From contig JAIQGG010000007.1 in NCBI GenBank assembly GCA_020072785.1, positions 73,995 through 107,793 on the forward strand: 33,799 nt of DNA. The letters run 5' to 3'. This document shows positions 16,941 to 33,799 of this stretch, in pieces (the first letter of the stretch is position 1; every line of letters starts with the position of its first letter). A model generated the notes under the pieces. It was not told the origin of the DNA, made no database searches, and worked only from the letters and a program-made list of their open reading frames with translations. A program made the position numbers and the translations under genes. Source of the stretch: Terriglobia bacterium (lineage in GTDB: Bacteria > Acidobacteriota > Terriglobia > Acidiferrales > UBA7541).

Positions 16941-18137
16941 TTACGCCGCGCCCGGCGCGGAACAGACCGCAGCGATCAGCTCGGCCAGGACCCGCGCGCA
17001 GATTTCCACCGAAGCGAGCTCCACGTACTCTTCCCGTCCATGCAGGCCCCGGCCCGCGGGACCGAAGACAACTCCCGGGATGCCTGCCGCGGCCAGCAGC
17101 GCGGTGTCCGTCCAGGGAGCCATGCCCGCCAGGCGCACACTGCCCGTGACCGCACGGATGGCCGCGGCCGCGGCGCGCGCGATGGGCGCTTCTGGCGAAA
17201 TTTCGTACGCGGGGCGCGCGCCGAGTGGCCGGACGGTGGCCGCAAACTCGGGATTGCCGGCGCGCAGCTCCGCGAGACACCGCTCCAGCTCTTCCCGCGC
17301 GGACTGCTCCGTCTCCCCCGGCAGGAGCCTGCGCTCGTATTTCAGGCGGCACTCCGCGGGATAGCTGGATAGCTCCTGCCCGCCGGCGATCAACGAAGCG
17401 TGCAGCGAGGCCTGGCCGAGCAGCGGGTGCGGCGGCGGAAGACGCAGGCGCGCTTCCACCTCATCGAGGGCCCGCAGAACGCGGCCCATCGCGCGGATGG
17501 CGTCGCGGCCTTCGCCGGGCATGCTGCCGTGCGCGGCGCGCCCCTGCGTGGTCACTTCGAACCACGCGTAGCCCTTGTGCGCGACGACCAACTGCAGATC
17601 GGTGGGCTCGAGAACCACGGCGCAGCCGGCAGTGACATGCTCGAGAAGTGCCGCGGTCCCCAGGCTGTTGCACTCTTCATCCACCACGGCGGCGAAAAAG
17701 AGCGGCTGGGCCAGAGCTTGGCCGCTGCGCGCAATGGCCACCGCCGCGGCGGCCATCGCTGCCACGCCGCTCTTGATGTCCAGCGCCCCGCGCCCGTAGA
17801 GCCGTCCTTCCTTCTCCCGGGGCGTGAACGCCTCGGGCATGTCCCCCGCGCCGACGGTGTCCATGTGCGCCAGGATCGCCAACCCGGCGCGCGGTTTGCC
17901 GCCGGCCCCGGCCGGGGCCTGCGGACCGAGCCAGGCGGTGACGTTGGGGCGGCCGGGCGCGGCTTCCGCGAGTTCCGCTTGAATTCCCTGCTGGCGCAAA
18001 AATGCGCAGAAAAATTCCGCGGCCGCTTTTTCGCCTTGGGCCCCCGGAACCAGCGTGGAATTGACGGAATCGATGGCCACCAGATCGCGCAGCAGCGCGT
18101 CCAGCAGCGCGCGGTCGATTTCGTGCGGCGCGCTCAT
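16941..18137 (-). CDS. M20 family zinc metallohydrolase (ArgE/DapE/ACY1 type)
   Basis: A 398-residue enzyme of the di-zinc M20 peptidase/deacylase family. H91-D93 (LAHMDTVGAGD), D120 (YGRGALDIKSG), the catalytic Glu and next Glu (E154-E155 in VVDEECNSLG) and the Glu in VLEPTDLQL build the metal site; HGSMPGEGRDAI and GGQELSSYPAECRL belong to the dimerisation domain, and GLHGREEYVEL gives the last ligand His. ATG 18137 overlaps the ketosynthase TGA by 4 nt. Upstream open frame to 18929 is antisense-like shadow and rejected. Family members hydrolyse peptides or N-acyl amino acids; next to an acyl ketosynthase, N-acyl hydrolysis is a possible but untested role. Confidence 0.92.
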   Translation of the reverse strand: MSAPHEIDRALLDALLRDLVAIDSVNSTLVPGAQGEKAAAEFFCAFLRQQGIQAELAEAAPGRPNVTAWLGPQAPAGAGGKPRAGLAILAHMDTVGAGDMPEAFTPREKEGRLYGRGALDIKSGVAAMAAAAVAIARSGQALAQPLFFAAVVDEECNSLGTAALLEHVTAGCAVVLEPTDLQLVVAHKGYAWFEVTTQGRAAHGSMPGEGRDAIRAMGRVLRALDEVEARLRLPPPHPLLGQASLHASLIAGGQELSSYPAECRLKYERRLLPGETEQSAREELERCLAELRAGNPEFAATVRPLGARPAYEISPEAPIARAAAAAIRAVTGSVRLAGMAPWTDTALLAAAGIPGVVFGPAGRGLHGREEYVELASVEICARVLAELIAAVCSAPGAA

Positions 18138-19438
18138 GCCCCGCTCGCGACCGGCTCGACCCAGCCGCCGCCGAAGAGCAGCCCTGGACCGAGGGAAGCC
18201 AGGAACACGGGCTGGCGCTCCGCGGCCGGAACCGAGGCCTGCGCGGCGAGCGCCGCATGCAACGCCGCGCCACAGGTGGACGATCCAAGATTTCCGCAGG
18301 TTCTGGCGATCAGCGGGAATTTCCCCGCGGGCACGCCGAGATGCCGCGCGAGTAGCTCGACCAGCCGCGGGTTGGGCTGGTGCGTGGCAAAGCCCGCGGC
18401 CTCGGCCAGCGCAAAGCCGCTGCGCAGGGCGGCGGCGCGCAACACTTTTTCCATGCGCGAGACGGCCGCGCGGGAGAGCGCCTCTCCATCGAACTGCACA
18501 TCCAGCGTTCCGCCCGGTGCGCCGGCATCGGCGGGCGCCACGCGAATGGCCGCCGCATATTGCCCGGCGCAGCCGAACTGGAATTCCCCCAGCCGGTAGG
18601 CGTTCTCTCCGGCGGCACGTGCCTGCAGGAGAAACGCGCTGGCGCCATCGCCGAAAAGCCCGCCGAATTCGCCAACCACGCGCCCCGGCGCGAGAATGCG
18701 GCTGTGCACGTCGGCGGAGACCACCAGAATCGTCCGGGCCAGCCCCGCGGCAAGATAAGCCCGCGCCGCGGCCATAGCGTTGAGCAGCCCGAGGCAGGCG
18801 CCGCCGATATCCAATGCGCCGCAGTTTTCCCGTGCCAGCAGCCGCGAGTGCAACTGCGCGCCGAGCGAAGGATAGGAGTGCTGCGTCTCGCTGGTGGCCA
18901 GGATCCAGTCGATTTTCCCCGCGCCGCAACCCGCTATGCGCAGCGCCTGCTGCGCCGCCTGCGCCCCCAGCGTCAGCTCGCTCTCGCCTTCCCCCGCCCG
19001 CGCAATGGACTCGATCCCCGCGCGCTTCCGCAGCTTGCCAACAGGCATCCCGAATTCCCGGTCCACCACCTCGGAAGGAACGGTCCGCGACCCAAAAGCC
19101 GTGCCAGAACTGATGAGAAAGCCTCCTTCTACGGGGTCGCTCGCGATCACAGCGGTTTTCACTGGAAGTTCGGCAACTGCTGGCCCATCCGACGCGGCGA
19201 TGGCCGCCAGGATGCTTTCGATGCTCGACGGCCTGCCCATCAACAGCGCGCCCAGGTCGGGTGCACCGGTGGACGATTCGAGGGCGCGGAGGAAACTCAC
19301 CCAGGCCATGGAATCGAGAACGCCTTCTTCCACGAGATCCACGTTTTCGCGTGGAAGAGCTGCGTCCGGGGCAAGCTCCCTGCGCAGACAGCTTTCGATC
19401 AAGCGGCGTGCGCGGCTGGCATCCATGGTCTTGGGCAT
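18134..19438 (-). CDS. ACP-KAS III fusion (FabH-like ketosynthase with N-terminal carrier domain)
   Basis: A 434-residue protein. Residues about 5-85 look like an acyl carrier protein: VDLVEEGVLDSMAWVSFLRALE places Ser43 in the phosphopantetheine-attachment position (the usual DSL reads DSM). Residues about 95-425 are a thiolase-fold ketosynthase with an intact FabH-type triad: Cys215 (DIGGACLGLLNA), His353 (GFATHQPNP) and Asn383 (CGNLGSSTCGAA). FGDGASAFLL is also conserved. ATG 19438 is chosen because GAGGAG lies 6 nt upstream and it shares its first base with the stop of the preceding gene (TGATG). KAS III enzymes condense an acyl-CoA with ACP-bound malonate or do acyl transfer; a built-in carrier is unusual. 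No fatty-acid genes are nearby, so a dedicated secondary pathway is inferred. Confidence 0.85.
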   Translation of the reverse strand: MPKTMDASRARRLIESCLRRELAPDAALPRENVDLVEEGVLDSMAWVSFLRALESSTGAPDLGALLMGRPSSIESILAAIAASDGPAVAELPVKTAVIASDPVEGGFLISSGTAFGSRTVPSEVVDREFGMPVGKLRKRAGIESIARAGEGESELTLGAQAAQQALRIAGCGAGKIDWILATSETQHSYPSLGAQLHSRLLARENCGALDIGGACLGLLNAMAAARAYLAAGLARTILVVSADVHSRILAPGRVVGEFGGLFGDGASAFLLQARAAGENAYRLGEFQFGCAGQYAAAIRVAPADAGAPGGTLDVQFDGEALSRAAVSRMEKVLRAAALRSGFALAEAAGFATHQPNPRLVELLARHLGVPAGKFPLIARTCGNLGSSTCGAALHAALAAQASVPAAERQPVFLASLGPGLLFGGGWVEPVASGA

Positions 19439-20151
19439 CAAAACTCCTCGAGCCATTCCCGGCTGGGCAAAGGAAATAGTGTATCCAACATCACCCAGCA
19501 ACGGTCATGGAAAGGCCGCGTGAGGCCCAGGCGAATATAGTGATGCGGGCAGCAGATGACTTTGTTGTGAAAACGGGAGTTGAAGAAGCGTTCGAGGCGG
19601 GCATGGCGGTTGGCGCCGCGATGCTCGGCGAGCGCGGCTTCCATGAACTCGTTCCAGTCACGATCCACCATGGGCAGATCGCGGAGCGCCTCACCCGAAG
19701 GAAGAACGAGCGAGGCGCGCAACTCGTTGCCGCAGAGCTCGAGCCGCACGTTCTGCGTTTCGCAGCCGCAGATCGAGCGCTGCGCCTCGGCTGGCGCGGC
19801 GTACAAGCCCGCGCCGCGCCGGCTCTCGCGGATTTTGCAGCCGAATAGTTCGGCGAGGGAACGCGCAGTTTCCGCTTTGCGCAGGTAGGGGACAATTTCC
19901 GCCTCCGCTACTTCCCCAACTTTCTGCAGCCCTCTTGTGGAAGTCCGGTCCTCGACGTGTGGCGGAGGCGCGGGAAGGCTCAGGAGACTGCCTTCGAGAA
20001 TGTCGCCGCGGCGATGCGGAAAATACGCCCATCCTTTGCCGCGCGGCGGCAGAGGCCGCAGGGAATGGATTTTTTCGGCTTCGCGCGCGAGGCCGATGAT
20101 ACAAAACGCCGGCCCCATCCGGGTGATTTCCGTAATGAGGAGTTTCGTCAC
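19438..20151 (-). CDS. Probable dual-OB-like domain protein of the DUF488 operon
   Basis: A 237-residue protein. The GTG at 20151 comes 1 nt after the stop of the preceding DUF488 gene, with GGAG about 9 nt upstream; longer upstream reading has poor sequence. The N-terminus KLLITEITRMGPAFCIIGL, followed by RPLPPRGKGW and HRRGDILEGSL, resembles the start of the dual-OB (DuOB) domain found in uncharacterised, possibly immunity-related operons. The C-terminus VICCPHHYIRLGLTRPFHDRCW fits a second beta-barrel with a terminal His. Fold assignment is from memory of the pattern and is tentative. OB folds commonly bind nucleic acids or nucleotides. It overlaps the ACP-KAS III gene by one base. Confidence 0.6.
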   Translation of the reverse strand: MTKLLITEITRMGPAFCIIGLAREAEKIHSLRPLPPRGKGWAYFPHRRGDILEGSLLSLPAPPPHVEDRTSTRGLQKVGEVAEAEIVPYLRKAETARSLAELFGCKIRESRRGAGLYAAPAEAQRSICGCETQNVRLELCGNELRASLVLPSGEALRDLPMVDRDWNEFMEAALAEHRGANRHARLERFFNSRFHNKVICCPHHYIRLGLTRPFHDRCWVMLDTLFPLPSREWLEEF

Positions 20152-20152
20152 G

Positions 20153-20656
20153 CTAGGCGCTCCGGGGCGGGCGTTTCTTGCGGGGAGGCTTGTATTTTTC
20201 GGAGACGAGATGGCGCACTTCGACGGAGTGACCCTGCCCGCGCCACCATTCAGCCAAACAATCAGCAGCGATGCGGCGGTGGCATTTCTCGGGACCCGGT
20301 TCGGAACACAGCAGAGCCATGGGCGCATCGGGCGGTGGCATCTCGAGAGAATGCGGCACGTCACGTTCTTTCAGCAACGCAAGAAAGGCGGCTTCGTAGC
20401 AGTTCCAGTCCTTCGTGGTGCGATAGGTCTTCAACAGCTCCGGCGTGGGCGCGAGCAGCACCTGGTGCTTATAGGAGATGCCGGCGAGGCGCTCCAGAAA
20501 GTAGGCCAGATCGGGATGCTTGGCGAAGCCCGAAAGCTGGCCGCCGCGGTGCTGGCGTATGTCGAGTACTTGTTTCACGCCGGCCGCCTGCAGCAAGGAA
20601 AAAAACTCCTCGGCCGTCTTGCCCGCGAAGCCGATGGTGCAGAGTAGGATGTGCAT
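20153..20656 (-). CDS. DUF488 family protein (second copy)
   Basis: A 167-residue protein starting MHILLCTIGFAGKTAEEF. DUF488 landmarks: TIGFAGK (in place of TVGHSN), VLDIRQHR (31-37), and LLCSEPGPEKCHRR with C117, C125, H126 and R127. It differs from the upstream copy at the first motif and has a much shorter C-terminus ending in a basic tail (KYKPPRKKRPPRSA). The family's biochemical function is not established; conserved Cys and CHR residues suggest a catalytic or metal-binding site. The gap to the first copy is 5 nt and the next gene begins 1 nt after its stop, indicating one transcript. Confidence 0.9.
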   Translation of the reverse strand: MHILLCTIGFAGKTAEEFFSLLQAAGVKQVLDIRQHRGGQLSGFAKHPDLAYFLERLAGISYKHQVLLAPTPELLKTYRTTKDWNCYEAAFLALLKERDVPHSLEMPPPDAPMALLCSEPGPEKCHRRIAADCLAEWWRGQGHSVEVRHLVSEKYKPPRKKRPPRSA

Positions 20657-20661
20657 GGCGG

Positions 20662-21291
20662 CTAGAAAGATTCCAGCGCTTCGGGCGAAACCCGGAAGGC
20701 ATATTTCTCGGACTGGAGGCGCAGGGCGTCCTCGAGGGCGGCGTCGCGGCCGGAAGTGAAGAGCGCGTCACTGGTCACATCCGCAAAACCGTGCAGGGCG
20801 AGGAGGCGATCTTCCGCTTCGCGCTGCGATTCGAGCGCACCGCCGCGGCGGATGTGCTGCGGCGCAACTCCGGCGGCCACCAGCGCGGGGCAGATGAGCA
20901 GAAAGCGATGGCATTCCAGGGGGTCTTCCTCCGCGCACAGCAGGGCGATATTGCCTCCGTGCGCGAGGGCGAGGCCGCGGTCGAGGCCGCTGCGAAACTC
21001 CGCGGAGTTGCGGCGCTTCGCATAGTCCACGAGACCGTCAGAGCGGTACGCGCGGGGGTCGCCGGGGCGGCCCCCCAGCTCCTCCCCGAGAAATTCGTAG
21101 CGGATGCCGGCGGAGGCCAGCGCTTCCTCTAAGAATTCGCGGTTGAACTGGGGAAAACGCGAACTGGCAGGGCGGCTGCGGACATCGCCAAGGATGCCAA
21201 TGGAATGGCGCTGCAAGGCGGCGAGGAGCGCCTCGGCCTCCAGATTCGAGTGACCAACGGTGAAGAAAGCGCCGGATTGTGACGGGGGCAT
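20662..21291 (-). CDS. DUF488 family protein (first copy)
   Basis: A 209-residue protein. ATG 21291 is used; a GTG at 21294 gives one extra residue and neither has a clear Shine-Dalgarno. Diagnostic DUF488 features are FFTVGHSNLE (9-18), LGDVRSRPASSRFPQFN (34-50) and ALLCAEEDPLECHR (C119, C127, H128, R129). A ~75-residue C-terminal extension (RGGALESQREAED...SEKYAFRVSPEALESF) is absent from the second copy. Function of the family is unknown. It is the first gene of the five-gene minus-strand set, and the 200-bp upstream intergenic region holds a CGAGTTT repeat array. Confidence 0.92.
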   Translation of the reverse strand: MPPSQSGAFFTVGHSNLEAEALLAALQRHSIGILGDVRSRPASSRFPQFNREFLEEALASAGIRYEFLGEELGGRPGDPRAYRSDGLVDYAKRRNSAEFRSGLDRGLALAHGGNIALLCAEEDPLECHRFLLICPALVAAGVAPQHIRRGGALESQREAEDRLLALHGFADVTSDALFTSGRDAALEDALRLQSEKYAFRVSPEALESF

Positions 21292-21400
21292 CACGGGAAG
21301 CCAGCGGGCGTATTCTGCCGAATTCTGCGGCCAGGAACAAGGGCGGTCTTCAAAGACAGGGGGAACGAGACGAAATTCGAAAGCGCCTAATGAGGAAGAA

Positions 21401-21453
21401 CGAGTTTCGAGTTTCGAGTTTCGAGTTTCGAGTTTCGAGTTTCGAGTTTCGAG
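21401..21453 (+). repeat. Perfect tandem array of CGAGTTT, 7 units plus CGAG
   Basis: Seven identical heptamers without a mismatch, plus a 4-nt partial, in the 204-bp space between the first DUF488 gene (start) and the HD gene (end), both on the minus strand. About 30 nt to the left lies CGAAATTCGAAAGC, which reads as degenerate inverted units (CGAAACT is the complement frame of the repeat), so a hairpin could form. Open frames reading RVSSFEF repeats across it are artefacts. Confidence 0.97.
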
Positions 21454-21495: not shown

Positions 21496-22128
21496 TCAGT
21501 CGGCAGGGCGGGCGCGGCGTTCCAGCGCGGAGACCACGCGGTCGAGCTCCTCGACGAGCGGCGTCACTCCGGCGGCGCGGAACTCCTCGACCAGAGCGCG
21601 GTAGTACCACAGCGTGCCTTCTTTGCGCCCGTGAAAGCGCTCGAAGACCGCGTCGCCGAGCAGGCGATGGTCGGCGAGAATCTCGCGTACGTTGGAAAGC
21701 TTGTCGGCGGCGGAAACCAGGCGGACCTCGGGCGATTCCCGGCGCACGCGGCGGATGTAGCGCTCCTTGCGTTCGCGCCACGGCGGGCGGAAGGTTTCGT
21801 CGGTGTCCGTGCAGCCCGCGACGATGCGCGCCACGCGCGTCCCGAACTTGCGGCGAATCTCGCGCAACCGCGGCAGGCCGCCCTGATCCTCCACGGCGTC
21901 GTGCAGCAGCGCGGCGATGACCGCGTTCTCGTCGCCGCCATACTGGATCACAATGGAAGCCACGGCCAGGAGATGCCCGACGTAGGGGTGTTCCTTGCCC
22001 TTGCGCGTCTGCCGGGCGTGGATGCGCGCGGCGTAGCCCAGCGCGCGGATGAAGCGGGAGGTCAGGGCGGGCGCGTGCGGCGCTTTCTTTGGCGGCGTGC
22101 GGCGCGCTCTTTTTTTCGGCGTGGACAT
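21496..22128 (-). CDS. HD-domain phosphohydrolase, MESH1/SpoT-hydrolase-like
   Basis: A 210-residue protein, starting with a basic Lys/Arg-rich stretch (1-20) and then a full HD domain: AARIHARQTRKGKEHPYVGHLLAV (H52), AALLHDAVEDQGG (H76, D77, E80, D81) and SAADKLSNVREIL (D142, N146). This order (RKG...PY..H, LLHD..ED, DKL.N) is that of the (p)ppGpp hydrolase domain of SpoT and of stand-alone MESH1-like small alarmone hydrolases; there is no synthetase domain. Thus alarmone degradation is a good but unproven guess. Most other HD enzymes would lack the DKLxN spacing. It is transcribed divergently from the DinB-like gene. Confidence 0.85.
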   Translation of the reverse strand: MSTPKKRARRTPPKKAPHAPALTSRFIRALGYAARIHARQTRKGKEHPYVGHLLAVASIVIQYGGDENAVIAALLHDAVEDQGGLPRLREIRRKFGTRVARIVAGCTDTDETFRPPWRERKERYIRRVRRESPEVRLVSAADKLSNVREILADHRLLGDAVFERFHGRKEGTLWYYRALVEEFRAAGVTPLVEELDRVVSALERRARPAD

Positions 22129-26091: not shown

Positions 26092-28368
26092 ATGCGCACG
26101 ACTCTGAAAATGATCCTGCCCCTCATTATCAGCGTGTCCGCTGTCTCTCTGCTGTTCGCTGGTTATCAGGTCCGCACAGAGCGCCGCAATCTACGCCGGG
26201 ATCTCTCGCGACGCTCCCAAGTTCTTGCAGAAAGCCTGCAGACAAACATCGAGCCTCTCTTCGAACGCGCGAATGAAAAAAACAATGAAAGGTATATGCA
26301 GCGTCTCGTGGAGCGGTTCGGCAAGCACGATCAATTCAAAGGTATCGCCGTCTATGACACGGCTGGCACTGCTCTAGCCATGACTTCCGGCCTCGCCGCG
26401 CTGCTCCGCACCTGCCCGGCCACCGCAGCGCACGCCGTCCAACAAGATGCGGCCACCGAGGACTATGTCGTCATCGGCGACGCTCCGTTCCAGATCTACG
26501 CTCTGCCGCTACATCGGGCTGGAGAAATCGTGGGGGCACTGGCGCTCGTCAATGACACTGCTTACATCGATGCCCAGGTCTCCCACACGCTTCGCGATTC
26601 ACTGGTGAATGCCGGCGTTCAGACTCTGCTCATCGCCGGACTCGCTCTTCTCCTCGTCCGCTGGAATTTCATTGCCCCGCTCGCGCGAACTGCAAAATGG
26701 CTCAGCATCCTTCGCACCGGCCAGCCGCATGCTCCTCCGGCTCTTTCGCAGAGCGAAATCTTTGCTCAGTTCAATCAAGAGGTCACGCACCTCGCCAACG
26801 ATCTCACCTCTGCCCGCGCCGTCGCCGAAGAAGAAGCCCGCCTGCGCGACTCCCATGTTTCTCTATGGACCGCCGAGCGCCTGCGCGTCAGCTTCCGCGC
26901 CAAGCTGCAGGGCACGCCCCTTTTTGTGGTTTCCAATCGCCAGCCGTACATCCACACCTTCAACGGAAAAAAATCCATCGAAGTCATCGTCCCGGCGAGT
27001 GGGCTGGTCACCGCGCTCGAACCCGTCCTCCTGGCGTGCGACGGCACTTGGGTTGCCCACGGCTCGGGCAGCGCCGACCGCGCAGTCGTGGACGCGCACG
27101 ACCGTCTCCGTGTGCCGCCCGATCATCCGAGTTACACGCTGCGCCGCGTCTGGCTCACCCCCGAAGAGGAGCGCGGCTACTATGCCGGCTTTTCCAATGA
27201 AGGCCTCTGGCCGCTCTGCCACATCGCGCACACCCGCCCGGTCTTCCGCCCGCAGGATTGGGAGCGCTACCAGGAAGTCAATCGCCACTTCGCCGACACC
27301 ATCCTCCAGGAAATGCAGGGCACCGAATCACCGATACTTCTGGCGCAGGACTATCACTTTGCTCTGCTGCCGCGCATGGTCAAGGAAGCTCGCCCCGATG
27401 CCCGCGTCGCCATTTTCTGGCACATTCCCTGGCCCAATCCCGAAGTCTTCGGCATTTGTCCCTGGCAGCGCGAGCTTGTTGACGGTCTTCTCGGCGCGGA
27501 CCTCATCGGCTTTCACATTCAGTCGCACTGCAACAATTTCCTGGAAACCGTCGAGCACGCCTTGGAAGCTCTCACCGAATGGGACCGCTTCGCCGTCAAC
27601 CGCCAGGGCCATGTCACTCGCGTGCGTCCCTATCCCATCAGCGTCGCGTTTCCTGACAGCAGTCAGACGCGAGTCCCGCTGCGCTCCCCGGGCAAGGAGC
27701 GTGCCGATCTATTCGCCGAGCTCGGCGTCGAAGCCTCTCTCCTCGGCCTCGGCGTAGACCGTGTTGATTACACCAAAGGCATTCTCGAGCGCTTCCGCGG
27801 CATCGAGAGATTCCTCGAACTGTTTCCCGTCTACCTGAACCGCTTCACTTTCGTTCAGATCGGCGCACCTAGCCGCACCCACATCGACCGTTACCACCAT
27901 TATCTTGAGGAAGTCTCCGCGGAAGCCGATCGCATCAACGCCCGCTTCCAAACCGCCCTCTGGAAGCCCATCGTGCTATTGAAGCGCCACCATTCACACG
28001 AGGAAATTGCGCGCTTTTATCATGCCGCTTCGGTGTGCCTCGTCACATCGCTCCACGACGGCATGAACCTCGTCGCCAAAGAATTTGTCGCCGCGCGCGA
28101 CGACGAGCGTGGCGTTTTAATCCTCAGCACTTTCGCCGGCGCCGCGAATGAACTCTCCGACGCGCTCCTCGTCAATCCCTATGATGTGCAACACCTGGCT
28201 CTGACCGTTTGCCGCGCCCTGGAAATGCCGGATGAGGAACAGACTGCCCGGATGCAGCGCATGCGCCGCGGCGTCCGGAAACACAACGTCTATCGTTGGG
28301 CCGCAAATCTCCTCTCTGACCTGACCGAAATTCGCATTGATACTCCGGAGCGCGCCGAAGTGCCATGA
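26092..28368 (+). CDS. otsA: Membrane sensor fused to trehalose-6-phosphate synthase
   Basis: A 758-residue protein. Residues 1-26 hold a first membrane helix ([18 protein letters not shown]). Residues about 27-170 form a presumed extracytoplasmic sensor ([52 protein letters not shown]), like single-Cache/PAS-like sensors. A second helix is at about 174-190, followed by a HAMP/coiled-coil-like linker (to about 265). From 277 to the end is a complete GT20 synthase: [48 protein letters not shown] and [12 protein letters not shown], covering UDP-glucose and glucose-6-phosphate sites. Normal OtsA is about 450-500 residues and soluble. It overlaps otsB by 4 nt. External conditions may directly control trehalose synthesis; this is inference. 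Confidence 0.92.
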
Positions 28369-29207
28369 ACCCCGCCCAACGCCGATTCCTCATACAACCT
28401 GGAGACTTGGTCGAATCAGCCTCAGGACATCTCTCCTCTGGCCGCGTCACTCATCTTTTTTCTCAGTGGCCTATTCTCGCTCCTCCGATTCGCGAAGCTT
28501 CCCATATCGTCCTGTTCCTCGATTTTGATGGCACCTTGGTCCCCATCGCTCCGCGTCCCGGGCAAGTTCGGCTGCGGGCCGCGACACGCGGACTCCTACG
28601 GCGCCTCGCCCCTCACCCTCGTCTCTCTCTCATCGTCATCAGCGGTCGCCGCCGCGCTGAACTCCAGCGGTTCATCGGCATTCGCGGCATCCGATATCTG
28701 GGCCTTTATGGCTGGGAACATGATGGTAAAGTGCAGCTTCCCATTCAAGCGACCACTGCCCTGCGCTGTGCCCACAACACGCTCAGAAATCTTCTTTCGG
28801 CGTCTCCCGGCGTCTGGATCGAAGACAAGCGCCATAGTCTTTCCATCCATCTTCCCGACACGGCTCAAGCATTGCGGCGCAATCTTCGCCGCACCCTTCG
28901 CGTGCTCCTTCGGCCATTCCTTGACCACCTGCACATTTTCGAAAACTGTCGCGACTTTGAAATTGTTCCGCGCTCGAATCAAGGCAAAGGCCGCGCCGTG
29001 CGTGATCTTCTCGCTCAGCCAACCTTCCGCCGCGCTTTGGTCATCTATTTCGGCGATGATCTCTCCGACGAACCCGCCTTCGCCGCCATCCCCCATGGCG
29101 TCTCCGTCCACGTCGGTTCGCCTCGCGCGACGTCCGCCCGCTATTTCCTTCGCAATTCCGCGGAAGTCACCGCCGCACTCAAACGATTGGAGGCTGCTCT
29201 TTCATGA
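28365..29207 (+). CDS. otsB: Trehalose-6-phosphate phosphatase
   Basis: A 280-residue HAD-superfamily phosphatase releasing trehalose from trehalose-6-phosphate. HAD motif I FLDFDGTLVP (nucleophile D53, acid D55), motif II IVISGRRRAEL, the conserved LGLYGWEHDG (usual GxxGxE) and motif IV IYFGDDLSDEPAF are seen. Residues 1-45 form an N-terminal extension beyond the usual start ([19 protein letters not shown]), probably unstructured. ATG overlaps the otsA stop (ATGA), and its own stop overlaps the next gene. Functional pairing with the sensor-TPS gene is clear from order. Confidence 0.95.
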   Translation: MNPAQRRFLIQPGDLVESASGHLSSGRVTHLFSQWPILAPPIREASHIVLFLDFDGTLVPIAPRPGQVRLRAATRGLLRRLAPHPRLSLIVISGRRRAELQRFIGIRGIRYLGLYGWEHDGKVQLPIQATTALRCAHNTLRNLLSASPGVWIEDKRHSLSIHLPDTAQALRRNLRRTLRVLLRPFLDHLHIFENCRDFEIVPRSNQGKGRAVRDLLAQPTFRRALVIYFGDDLSDEPAFAAIPHGVSVHVGSPRATSARYFLRNSAEVTAALKRLEAALS

Positions 29208-29863
29208 ACATTGCCGAAACACCTTTCGAATTCTTCACCGTTGCTTATCTCACACGTATCGGCAACCAGTCCGCCTGCACGCTCTCCGAGCTGCTCTCCG
29301 GACTCGAACATTGCAGCGACAACTCCATCTTTCATCACACCTATCAAACTCTCGGTGCCCACCACTTCCTGACGGAAGGTTTTTCGAATGATTTCGCCCA
29401 GTGGGTGCTTGCCGCTGCGAACCGCGACCCGCTCGCCGAGCAGCTCGCCGCCCTCGACATCCGTGACTACGTCTCTATCGCCGCCCTCCGCAGCGATCTC
29501 TGCCGTCTCGTCCGGGATTACTGCGCCGAGCATCCGCAGTTCGCCGCGCAATCCGCCCTCGAACCTTTCTACTTCTGCGAAAGCGTCGAGGTGACCGCGC
29601 CTCTCCGCTACAAAGCCGCCACGCTCGAACAATTCCGCTACGGTCTCGAACGCCTCAGCCACGCCGCTTTCTACTTTCATTTCATTTCCTCTCGCCTTCG
29701 CCTGCACCTCCAGACCAACGATTTTTCGCTTTGGCTGAATGGCGGTCTCGGCCTTTCCACTCTCGCCTCGAGTTTCAATCGCATCGACATCTACACCAAC
29801 ACGCTCGACACCGTGCGCAGCAAAATGTTCCGCCTCATCGATCGGGAACAGAGGAAACCATGA
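29204..29863 (+). CDS. DUF5752 family protein
   Basis: A 219-residue soluble protein. Distinctive strings are ETPFEFFTVAYLTRIGNQSA, SDNSIFHHTYQTLGAHHFL and TEGFSNDFAQWVLAA, the signature of DUF5752, commonly found beside trehalose synthase TreT. The protein ends with many hydrophobic helices (LERLSHAAFYFHFISSRLRL) and a final SSFNRIDIYTNTLDTVRSKMF motif. Biochemical role unknown; a regulatory or accessory function for trehalose metabolism is inferred from position. It overlaps both neighbours by 4 nt. Confidence 0.9.
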   Translation: MNIAETPFEFFTVAYLTRIGNQSACTLSELLSGLEHCSDNSIFHHTYQTLGAHHFLTEGFSNDFAQWVLAAANRDPLAEQLAALDIRDYVSIAALRSDLCRLVRDYCAEHPQFAAQSALEPFYFCESVEVTAPLRYKAATLEQFRYGLERLSHAAFYFHFISSRLRLHLQTNDFSLWLNGGLGLSTLASSFNRIDIYTNTLDTVRSKMFRLIDREQRKP

Positions 29864-31086
29864 TCGAAGCGCCCGTTGCACTGCGTATCCCCCTGGATGC
29901 CTACGCCGCGCTTCTCGGCGCCGGGGAAATCGATGAGCTCCGCGCTCTCGCCGCTCCGCTCAAGGGCCGTAGGGTCCAGATGGTCAATTCCACCGCCGTC
30001 GGCGGCGGCGTCGCGGAAATTCTCAACCGCCTCGTGCCTCTCGCACAGGAGCTCGAACTCCCCATTCGCTGGGATGTCATGACCGGCGGCGAAGATTTCT
30101 TCGAAGTCACCAAATCCTTCCACAACGCCTTGCACGGCGGCTCTTATCATCCTTGCGCCAAAGACTTCGAAATCTTTCTCGCCTACAACGAACGAAATCG
30201 TGCGCGCCTCTCCTTGGACGCAGAATTCACCGTCATCCACGACCCGCAACCCGCCGCGCTCATTGATGCGCGCCGGAGCGGCTCGGGTCATTGGATCTGG
30301 CGCTGCCACATCGATCTTTCCCACCCTCATCACGCTGTCTGGACTTTTCTCGAAAGGTTCGTCTCGCACTATGACGGCGCCATCTTCTCTTCGCCCGAGT
30401 TTTCCCGGCACCTTCCCATTCCGCAATATCTGTTCTATCCCGCCATCGATCCTCTCTCCGACAAGAATCGCGATCTCGATCCCACTTTCGTATCTGGCGT
30501 TCTCGAGCGCTACAACATCGATCCCCGCCGGGTCATCCTCACCCAAATCTCCCGCTTCGATCGCCTCAAAGACCCTGTGGGCGTCATTCGCGCCTATCGC
30601 ATCGTCAAGCGCTATTTCGATTGCCAGCTTGTCCTCGCCGGGGGCAGCGCCTCCGACGACCCCGAAGGCTCCGCCGTCCTAAAAGAAGTCCTCCACGAGG
30701 CCGGCAACGACCCCGACATTCACGTCCTCGAACTTCACGCCTGGGCCCCGCTCGAAGTCAACGCCCTCCAGCGCGCCTCCACTATCGTCATCCAAAAAAG
30801 TCTCCGCGAAGGTTTTGGCCTCACCGTCACCGAAGCGCTCTGGAAGAAGAAACCTGTCGTCGCCTCAGCCGTCGGCGGCATCCCCACGCAGATCATCCAT
30901 AAACACACCGGCCTCCTCGCGCATTCCGTGGAAGGCACGGCCTATCAAATACGTTATCTGTTGTCGCATCCGGAAATCGCCGCGAAACTCGGGGAGCACG
31001 GCCACCAGCATGTCAAGGAAAACTTCCTCATCACGCACAATCTCAAGAACTACATCGTCCTCTTCTTGAGCCTCTTGCGTAAGTAA
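29860..31086 (+). CDS. treT: Trehalose glycosyltransferring synthase, GT4
   Basis: A 408-residue GT4 glycosyltransferase that in the family joins NDP-glucose and glucose to make trehalose directly. ATG 29860 is chosen from GAGGAAACC upstream and the ATGA overlap; longer readings extend across DUF5752. N-terminal VNSTAVGGGVAEILNRL (glycine-rich acceptor loop), HDPQPAAL, WRCHIDLSHPH, and C-terminal TQISRFDRLKDPVGVI and SLREGFGLTVTEALW (the E-x7-E nucleotide site) match TreT. It ends the operon, followed by an 8-bp inverted repeat. With OtsA-OtsB it provides two trehalose routes. Confidence 0.93.
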   Translation: MIEAPVALRIPLDAYAALLGAGEIDELRALAAPLKGRRVQMVNSTAVGGGVAEILNRLVPLAQELELPIRWDVMTGGEDFFEVTKSFHNALHGGSYHPCAKDFEIFLAYNERNRARLSLDAEFTVIHDPQPAALIDARRSGSGHWIWRCHIDLSHPHHAVWTFLERFVSHYDGAIFSSPEFSRHLPIPQYLFYPAIDPLSDKNRDLDPTFVSGVLERYNIDPRRVILTQISRFDRLKDPVGVIRAYRIVKRYFDCQLVLAGGSASDDPEGSAVLKEVLHEAGNDPDIHVLELHAWAPLEVNALQRASTIVIQKSLREGFGLTVTEALWKKKPVVASAVGGIPTQIIHKHTGLLAHSVEGTAYQIRYLLSHPEIAAKLGEHGHQHVKENFLITHNLKNYIVLFLSLLRK

Positions 31087-32781: not shown

Positions 32782-33799
32782 TCAAACCTCTGCCAGGCGC
32801 CGGCCTTCGAGGGCCGTCGAAAGCGCGCTGTTCATCATCAGCTCGGCCAGGTGCGTGGTCGCCTGGTTCAGCTCGTCAATGCGCGCGCGCACCAGCTTGT
32901 AATCGCTGCCCGCGGCCGCGGCCTGCAGCGCCGCGACACTCGCGTCAATCTTTTCGCGCTCGCCGCCGGCGAGCTGCGCGGCTGGAACCGCGGCCAGCGC
33001 CTTGGCCGTGGCGGTCAAGATCGATTCCGCCTCGGTGCGCGCTTCGATCAGTTGGCGCTCCGCAAAATCCTGCTCCGCATACTCGATGGACTCCTCCAGC
33101 ATGCGCTCGACCTCGGCGTCGTTCAGCCCGTAGCTCGGCTGCACTTCCACCGTGTGCTGCTCGCCGGTGCGCAGATCTTTCGCGGCCACCTGCAGGATGC
33201 CGTTGGCGTCGATCAGGAATTTCACCTCGATGCGCGGCAGCCCCGCCGGCGCCGGCGGCACCTTCAGCGTAAAGCGCGCCAGCGAGCGGCAATCCTTGGC
33301 CATCTCGCGCTCGCCCTGCACCACGTGAATGTCGATCCCTGTCTGGTTGTCCACCCCGGTGGTGTAGAGTTCCTGCGCGCTCGCCGGAATCGTCGAATTG
33401 CGCGGGATGATCTTGGCCACCGCGCCGCCGTACGTCTCGATGCCCAGCGAAAGCGGAGCAACATCCAGCAGCAGCATGTTCTTCACCCCGCGCGCCAGGA
33501 TGTCCGCCTGCACGGCCGCACCGAGCGCCACCACTTCGTCGGGGTTCAGTTCGACGTGCGGCTTGCGGCCAAAGAATTTCTCGACCGTGCTGCGAATCAG
33601 CGGCGTGCGCGTGGTGCCGCCCACCAGCACCACTTCGTCCATCTCCGTGGGCTGCAGCTGCGCGTCGGCCAGCGCCTGGCGCACGGGCTTCATGGTGCGC
33701 TCCACCACCGGCGCGATGAGCGCATCGAGCGCCGCGCGCGTGAATTCCCGGGCATAGACGGCGCCGCCCGCCAGCGGGAAGCGCAGCGTGGCCTTATCC
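32782..33799 (-). CDS. hscA: Hsp70-type chaperone HscA, 5' end outside window
   Basis: 339 codons of the C-terminal half are present; no start is visible and the frame is open to the window edge. The end of the ATPase domain (VVLVGGTTRTPLIRSTVEKFFG, LNPDEVVALGAAVQADILARG), the hydrophobic interdomain linker (NMLLLDVAPLSLGIET), the substrate-binding beta-domain (PAPAGLPRIEVKFLIDANGILQVAA) and the helical lid are complete. Its place upstream of fdx and iscX, plus the short lid, points to HscA, which with HscB releases clusters from IscU, rather than DnaK. Confidence 0.93.
   Translation of the reverse strand, partial: DKATLRFPLAGGAVYAREFTRAALDALIAPVVERTMKPVRQALADAQLQPTEMDEVVLVGGTTRTPLIRSTVEKFFGRKPHVELNPDEVVALGAAVQADILARGVKNMLLLDVAPLSLGIETYGGAVAKIIPRNSTIPASAQELYTTGVDNQTGIDIHVVQGEREMAKDCRSLARFTLKVPPAPAGLPRIEVKFLIDANGILQVAAKDLRTGEQHTVEVQPSYGLNDAEVERMLEESIEYAEQDFAERQLIEARTEAESILTATAKALAAVPAAQLAGGEREKIDASVAALQAAAAGSDYKLVRARIDELNQATTHLAELMMNSALSTALEGRRLAEV

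Follow-up and report, generated by a model that had tools for sequence, protein, structure and literature searches.

The analysed window, a 33,799-nucleotide stretch of a Terriglobia genome, carries an operon of five genes on the same (minus) strand at positions 16,941 to 21,291, with a gene for an HD hydrolase upstream. The genes and domains are as follows.

21,496–22,128, minus strand: HD_4 hydrolase (RelA/SpoT-HD/Mesh1-like), with an intact HDAVED motif; a frequent upstream neighbour
20,662–21,291, minus strand: DUF488a (B), 209 amino acids, with PF04343 and a match to PDC-M45B
20,153–20,656, minus strand: DUF488b (C), 167 amino acids, with PF04343 and DUF488-N3a (the 'active' subclade) and a match to PDC-M45C
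19,438–20,151, minus strand: dual-OB-fold protein, 237 amino acids, GTG start, probably a diverged DuOB-like protein
18,134–19,438, minus strand: carrier-KASIII fusion, 434 amino acids
19,187–19,438, minus strand: carrier (ACP/PCP-like) domain of the fusion, residues 1–84
18,137–19,126, minus strand: KASIII domain of the fusion, residues about 105–434, with Cys215, His353 and Asn383
16,941–18,137, minus strand: M20 metallohydrolase (ArgE/DapE-like), 398 amino acids; an accessory member

The DUF488a gene starts with the ATG at 21,291, and a GTG lies in frame at 21,294. When recomputed, the spacings between the five genes (+5, +1, −1 with TGATG, and −4 with ATGA) matched the original prediction exactly, and Pfam agrees with its assignment of two DUF488 proteins, a KASIII and an M20 enzyme. 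The arrangement is beyond chance, because the tight spacings recur in diverged relatives, mostly just 50–70% identical, and dN/dS across the genes tested is 0.07–0.26. By eye, a short tandem repeat with a unit of about 7 bp (CGAAACT) is visible at 21,400–21,450, upstream of DUF488a. Elsewhere in the window, a trehalose cluster on the plus strand (26,092–31,086; GT20, trehalose phosphatase, DUF5752 and a TreT-type glycosyltransferase) is followed by an hscA-like HSP70 gene (32,782–33,708, minus strand).

DUF488 proteins belong to the rhodanese-phosphatase superfamily and are predicted to process nucleotides or nucleic acids. Both proteins encoded here match PF04343 (6.8e-21 for DUF488a and 1.9e-13 for DUF488b), and both retain a conserved cysteine together with a Cys-His-Arg signature (C119 and C127-H128-R129 in DUF488a, C117 and C125-H126-R127 in DUF488b). 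They correspond to the B (PDLC04657, 1.3e-54) and C (PDLC04658, 6e-44) components, respectively, of PDC-M45, a phage-defence candidate computed by PADLOC (DuOB PF22557 + DUF488 + DUF488) that was named in no paper found in a literature search; this match accords with the earlier suggestion that DUF488 and OB proteins recur as a candidate immunity set. On plasmids of Agrobacterium, Allochromatium and Rhodovastum, the DUF488 pair follows DuOB (PF22557, PDC-M45A), and one of these three sets adjoins CRISPR genes. Canonical DuOB sets are also found elsewhere in the close relatives G299, G300 and G340; thus, both forms coexist in the genus. The operon in the window differs from PDC-M45 in its gene order (B-C-A vs. 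A-B-C in the three plasmid examples), in the added carrier-KASIII gene and in its fixed chromosomal locus, as opposed to plasmid surroundings. A search of viral contigs with DUF488b found nothing. Lone M45C-type DUF488 genes on an IncX5 plasmid (L011:4995-5426) and a Comamonas plasmid (L012:4989-5420) adjoin uvrA or uvrB and formaldehyde-resistance genes (frmR, S-formylglutathione hydrolase), neighbours suggesting that this clade of DUF488 may have a role in DNA damage. On two enterobacterial plasmids (L009:211-1244 and L010:132-1795), an M45-type DUF488 lies beside a DUF4326 protein, which is an mSLOG-DUF4326 fusion in the former, whereas the latter has DuOB upstream; DUF4326, a relative of DUF488, has been linked to the rhodanese-phosphatase group, with a predicted role on the phosphates of ADP-ribose (PMC9503650).

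The third protein of the operon has no significant Pfam match and no PADLOC match at E 10. Its AlphaFold2 model, built with 14 homologues (pLDDT 88.7, pTM 0.86), is a tandem OB fold, so that the OB assignment, originally a guess, was upheld by fold prediction; the model resembles the tandem OB folds of HIN-200 domains, Teb1, telomere end-binding protein and LEF-3, with Z < 7, values that support the fold only and not nucleic-acid binding. The motifs C17-x-x-G20, R32-P33, D50 and H65-x-E67-D68 are colinear with the C-x-x-G / R-P / D / H-x-E order of DuOB. The best Pfam DuOB value was 0.0092, reached in 2 of the 14 homologues, and end-to-end hhalign against the DuOB profile gave P = 1.9e-4 at a probability of just 48%. 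A protein that misses the DuOB and PDC-M45A profile thresholds and yet aligns through shared motifs is suggestive of a diverged relative, not a member, and the third protein is probably a diverged DuOB lying under all profile thresholds. DUF488b has a basic pI of about 9, and the third protein is mildly basic as well. A plasmid tblastn with the OB protein returned nothing, PDB sequence searches with the DUF488 and OB proteins gave no usable match, and Foldseek against viral models yielded just weak LEF-3 matches for the OB protein.

In the fusion protein, the ACP_syn_III domains PF08545 and PF08541 score above their cut-offs (51.2 and 38.6 bits vs. 24 and 26.6), whereas the match to FabH (TIGR00747), at 116.8 bits, lies below the curated cut-off of 292.1. 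Decarboxylative condensation is the normal reaction of KASIII enzymes whose Cys-His-Asn triad is intact, such as FabH; the triad is invariant in all 37 KASIII proteins, and the structures closest to the model are FabH, BioZ and PqsD (Z 37–38). This enzyme differs from that family in the N-terminally fused carrier and in sharing an operon with DUF488/OB genes. The carrier domain, which had been proposed from the sequence, is substantiated by a four-helix layout in the model (helices 7–21, 43–57, 62–65 and 73–82), by an invariant DSM, in which S43 at the start of helix II (codon 19,310–19,312) is the predicted phosphopantetheine serine (Ser43 in 15/15 carriers of full blocks), and by a profile match to D-alanyl carrier proteins (DltC; E 0.0013). 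PP-binding PF00550 matched 7 of the 15 carriers (best 0.0041), the window carrier being without a match. The domain thus shares the four-helix layout and GxLDSM motif of DltC-type and peptidyl carriers but is fused to KASIII, and no adenylating partner was recognised nearby. The genome also encodes one separate second KASIII and a holo-ACP-synthase-family protein; therefore, a Ppant transferase is available. These features bear on a small-molecule pathway in which a PqsD-like KASIII would yield a diffusible acyl-derived metabolite or signal that the DUF488 and OB proteins tailor or sense, with no nucleic-acid modification. The structural neighbours of the KASIII model, the DltC- and peptidyl-like carrier, the second KASIII (so that the block enzyme is not the sole FabH candidate) and the stable chromosomal site of the block near hscA/ferredoxin all fit such a pathway; however, other tailoring or export genes are not conserved with the block and a dual-OB protein is unusual in small-molecule pathways, and we consider this explanation rather unlikely.

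To map the neighbourhoods, 120 relatives were searched with DUF488b and with KASIII. A profile search found the OB protein in 22 of 399 Terriglobia genomes, with the gene broken in two (G306 and G326); phylum-wide, 2 of 396 genomes matched, namely, the window's own and one weak, uncredited match. An OB match in G010/L117 (E about 1e-5) was rejected as chance, as it overlaps a frame antisense, by eye, to a helicase-like coding sequence that we take to be RecG-like, and a partial match in G278/L164 (E 5e-4, within a 1285-codon frame) was not credited. A pattern scan, not exhaustive, through 84,980 species representatives turned up 19 loci, titled Acidobacteria or Terriglobia with one exception, a Betaproteobacteria entry (L122, CAJCHZ010000050.1) that is G302, from the window's genus, and probably a mislabelled genome. 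Within the reach of their contigs, 20/20 Terriglobia genomes whose OB gene is intact show the order DUF488a-DUF488b-OB-carrier-KASIII (the block is split between contigs in G307 and G332, and the contig ends early in G448 and G458), and this order spans at least two families, including f86, where OB identity is 33–39%. The nearest relatives of each block gene largely agree, and therefore, the block genes travelled together. We conclude with high confidence that the two DUF488 genes, the dual-OB gene and the carrier-KASIII gene are one conserved unit, as originally proposed; a split at the OB/ketosynthase junction, which would mean two operons, was not found across genomes. That the DUF488/OB genes and the ketosynthase are two unrelated adjoining units with accidentally tight spacing is very improbable: KASIII, and KASIII with M20 in G301, do occur at the same locus without DUF488/OB, but gene order does not vary between genera or families, and loss of the DUF488/OB genes goes together with loss of the carrier domain from within the ketosynthase gene. 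On synteny and this joint loss, chance adjacency of two operons was rejected. We know of no described system that pairs DUF488/OB proteins with a carrier-ketosynthase, and a literature search found no paper linking DUF488 to a ketosynthase.

The M20 enzyme does not belong to this unit. It contains PF01546/PF07687 above the Pfam cut-off and the motifs HMDTV, GALDIKSG, DEECNS and GLHG, and thus resembles ArgE/DapE deacylases in domains and metal-ligand-type motifs, but its score against TIGR01910 (203.7 bits) is below the curated cut-off of 217.6, and it is only occasionally linked to the block. It adjoins KASIII in 5 of 37 loci (the window genome, G303, G332, G353 and G301), one of which, G301, has no DUF488/OB genes. 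This distribution rules out M20 as a core part, contrary to the original prediction, and the removal half of the scheme proposed there, to build and remove an acyl modification, is absent from most genomes. An intact HDxxED motif is retained in the HD hydrolase, whose gene often lies upstream of the block and also upstream of KASIII-only loci, and is possibly part of an extended operon. In several relatives (L083:10229-15935 and similar), the KASIII gene is followed by a four-gene block encoding three proteins with prepilin N-methylation motifs and a protein of ~1000 amino acids without a Pfam match.

KASIII stands alone at the same locus in 17 of the 37 loci, and the carrier domain is absent from all 17. 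Four loci are partial: DUF488b with KASIII in G298, DUF488a with KASIII in G330 and G331, and a decaying block in G326, where DUF488a is split, DUF488b is cut to its first 29 residues and joined to the OB frame, and the carrier DSM helix is deleted with KASIII intact. G341 is the sole locus with carrier-KASIII but without DUF488/OB genes. On the KASIII tree, the block underwent ~11 state changes and the carrier ~10. Among five independent pairs on supported branches, the carrier moves with the block in 4.6 of 5 on average and never in the opposite direction (p = 0.0625, the floor for five pairs; the tree is a quick one with long branches). From roughly where the KASIII domain begins, G323 shares 94.6% identity with its KASIII-only sister G308, which is without the 2.2 kb block found upstream in G323; because the upstream sequence of G308 is common to other KASIII-only genomes, this pair fits loss or regain of the block. 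The break falls inside the ketosynthase gene and therefore marks a functional boundary, with the carrier and DUF488/OB on one side and KASIII on the other. In the absence of the block, KASIII is under purifying selection (dN/dS 0.09–0.18), and given the invariant triad in KASIII-only loci, it must have a function of its own too, independent of the block.

Patchy presence and repeated state changes, like the strong PDC-M45B/C matches and the canonical set beside CRISPR genes on a plasmid, are compatible with PDC-M45-type defence or repair, in which carrier-KASIII would only sense or regulate, through a tie to lipid metabolism, and would not be the catalytic core. However, the block lies outside recognised defence islands and mobile elements, at a syntenic locus and in a gene order different from that of PDC-M45, itself just a computed candidate in no paper found; this role appears quite unlikely. 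The most probable interpretation is that a nucleotide or nucleic-acid module of DuOB/DUF488 type is hard-wired to a carrier-KASIII acyl enzyme dedicated to it. With a probability that we estimate at about 0.4, the carrier-bearing KASIII, the dual-OB protein and the two DUF488 proteins work together as one co-inherited Terriglobia system, the last three being a diverged relative of the DuOB-DUF488-DUF488 set.

Taken together, these parts are most simply read as acyl chemistry with a nucleotide or nucleic acid as the substrate, although such chemistry on a nucleotide is, in itself, doubtful. Under this reading, phosphopantetheine on Ser43 of the carrier would hold an acyl, malonyl or aminoacyl unit, the dedicated carrier probably holding extender or product, and the KASIII domain, through Cys-His-Asn, would condense or transfer that unit; the OB protein may hold the nucleotide or nucleic acid that serves as substrate and that the two cysteine-containing DUF488 domains would process, and M20, where present, could serve as an optional deacylase. 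The substrate, the order of reactions and a physical complex are parts of this mechanism that we infer. The purifying selection on KASIII without the block and the carrier-KASIII of G341 without DUF488/OB count against it, as does the lack of a recognisable adenylation or acyl-loading enzyme beside the block. In its specific form, whereby KASIII with its dedicated carrier places a (beta-keto)acyl group on the OB-held, DUF488-processed nucleotide or nucleic acid, the mechanism is unlikely; if true, it would be, as far as we know, the first case of fatty-acid-type condensing chemistry put to such a use.

The claim of linkage is strong and that of function modest, with the conserved block pointing to an undescribed acyl-chemistry system in soil Acidobacteria. 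DUF488 and DuOB are widespread, and we know of no established biochemical function for either. Here, shared loss ties them to a carrier domain and to an enzyme class that is well understood, which makes the cofactor and the chemistry directly assayable, and knowing what the carrier is loaded with and where that load goes may reveal the role of DUF488 and DuOB.
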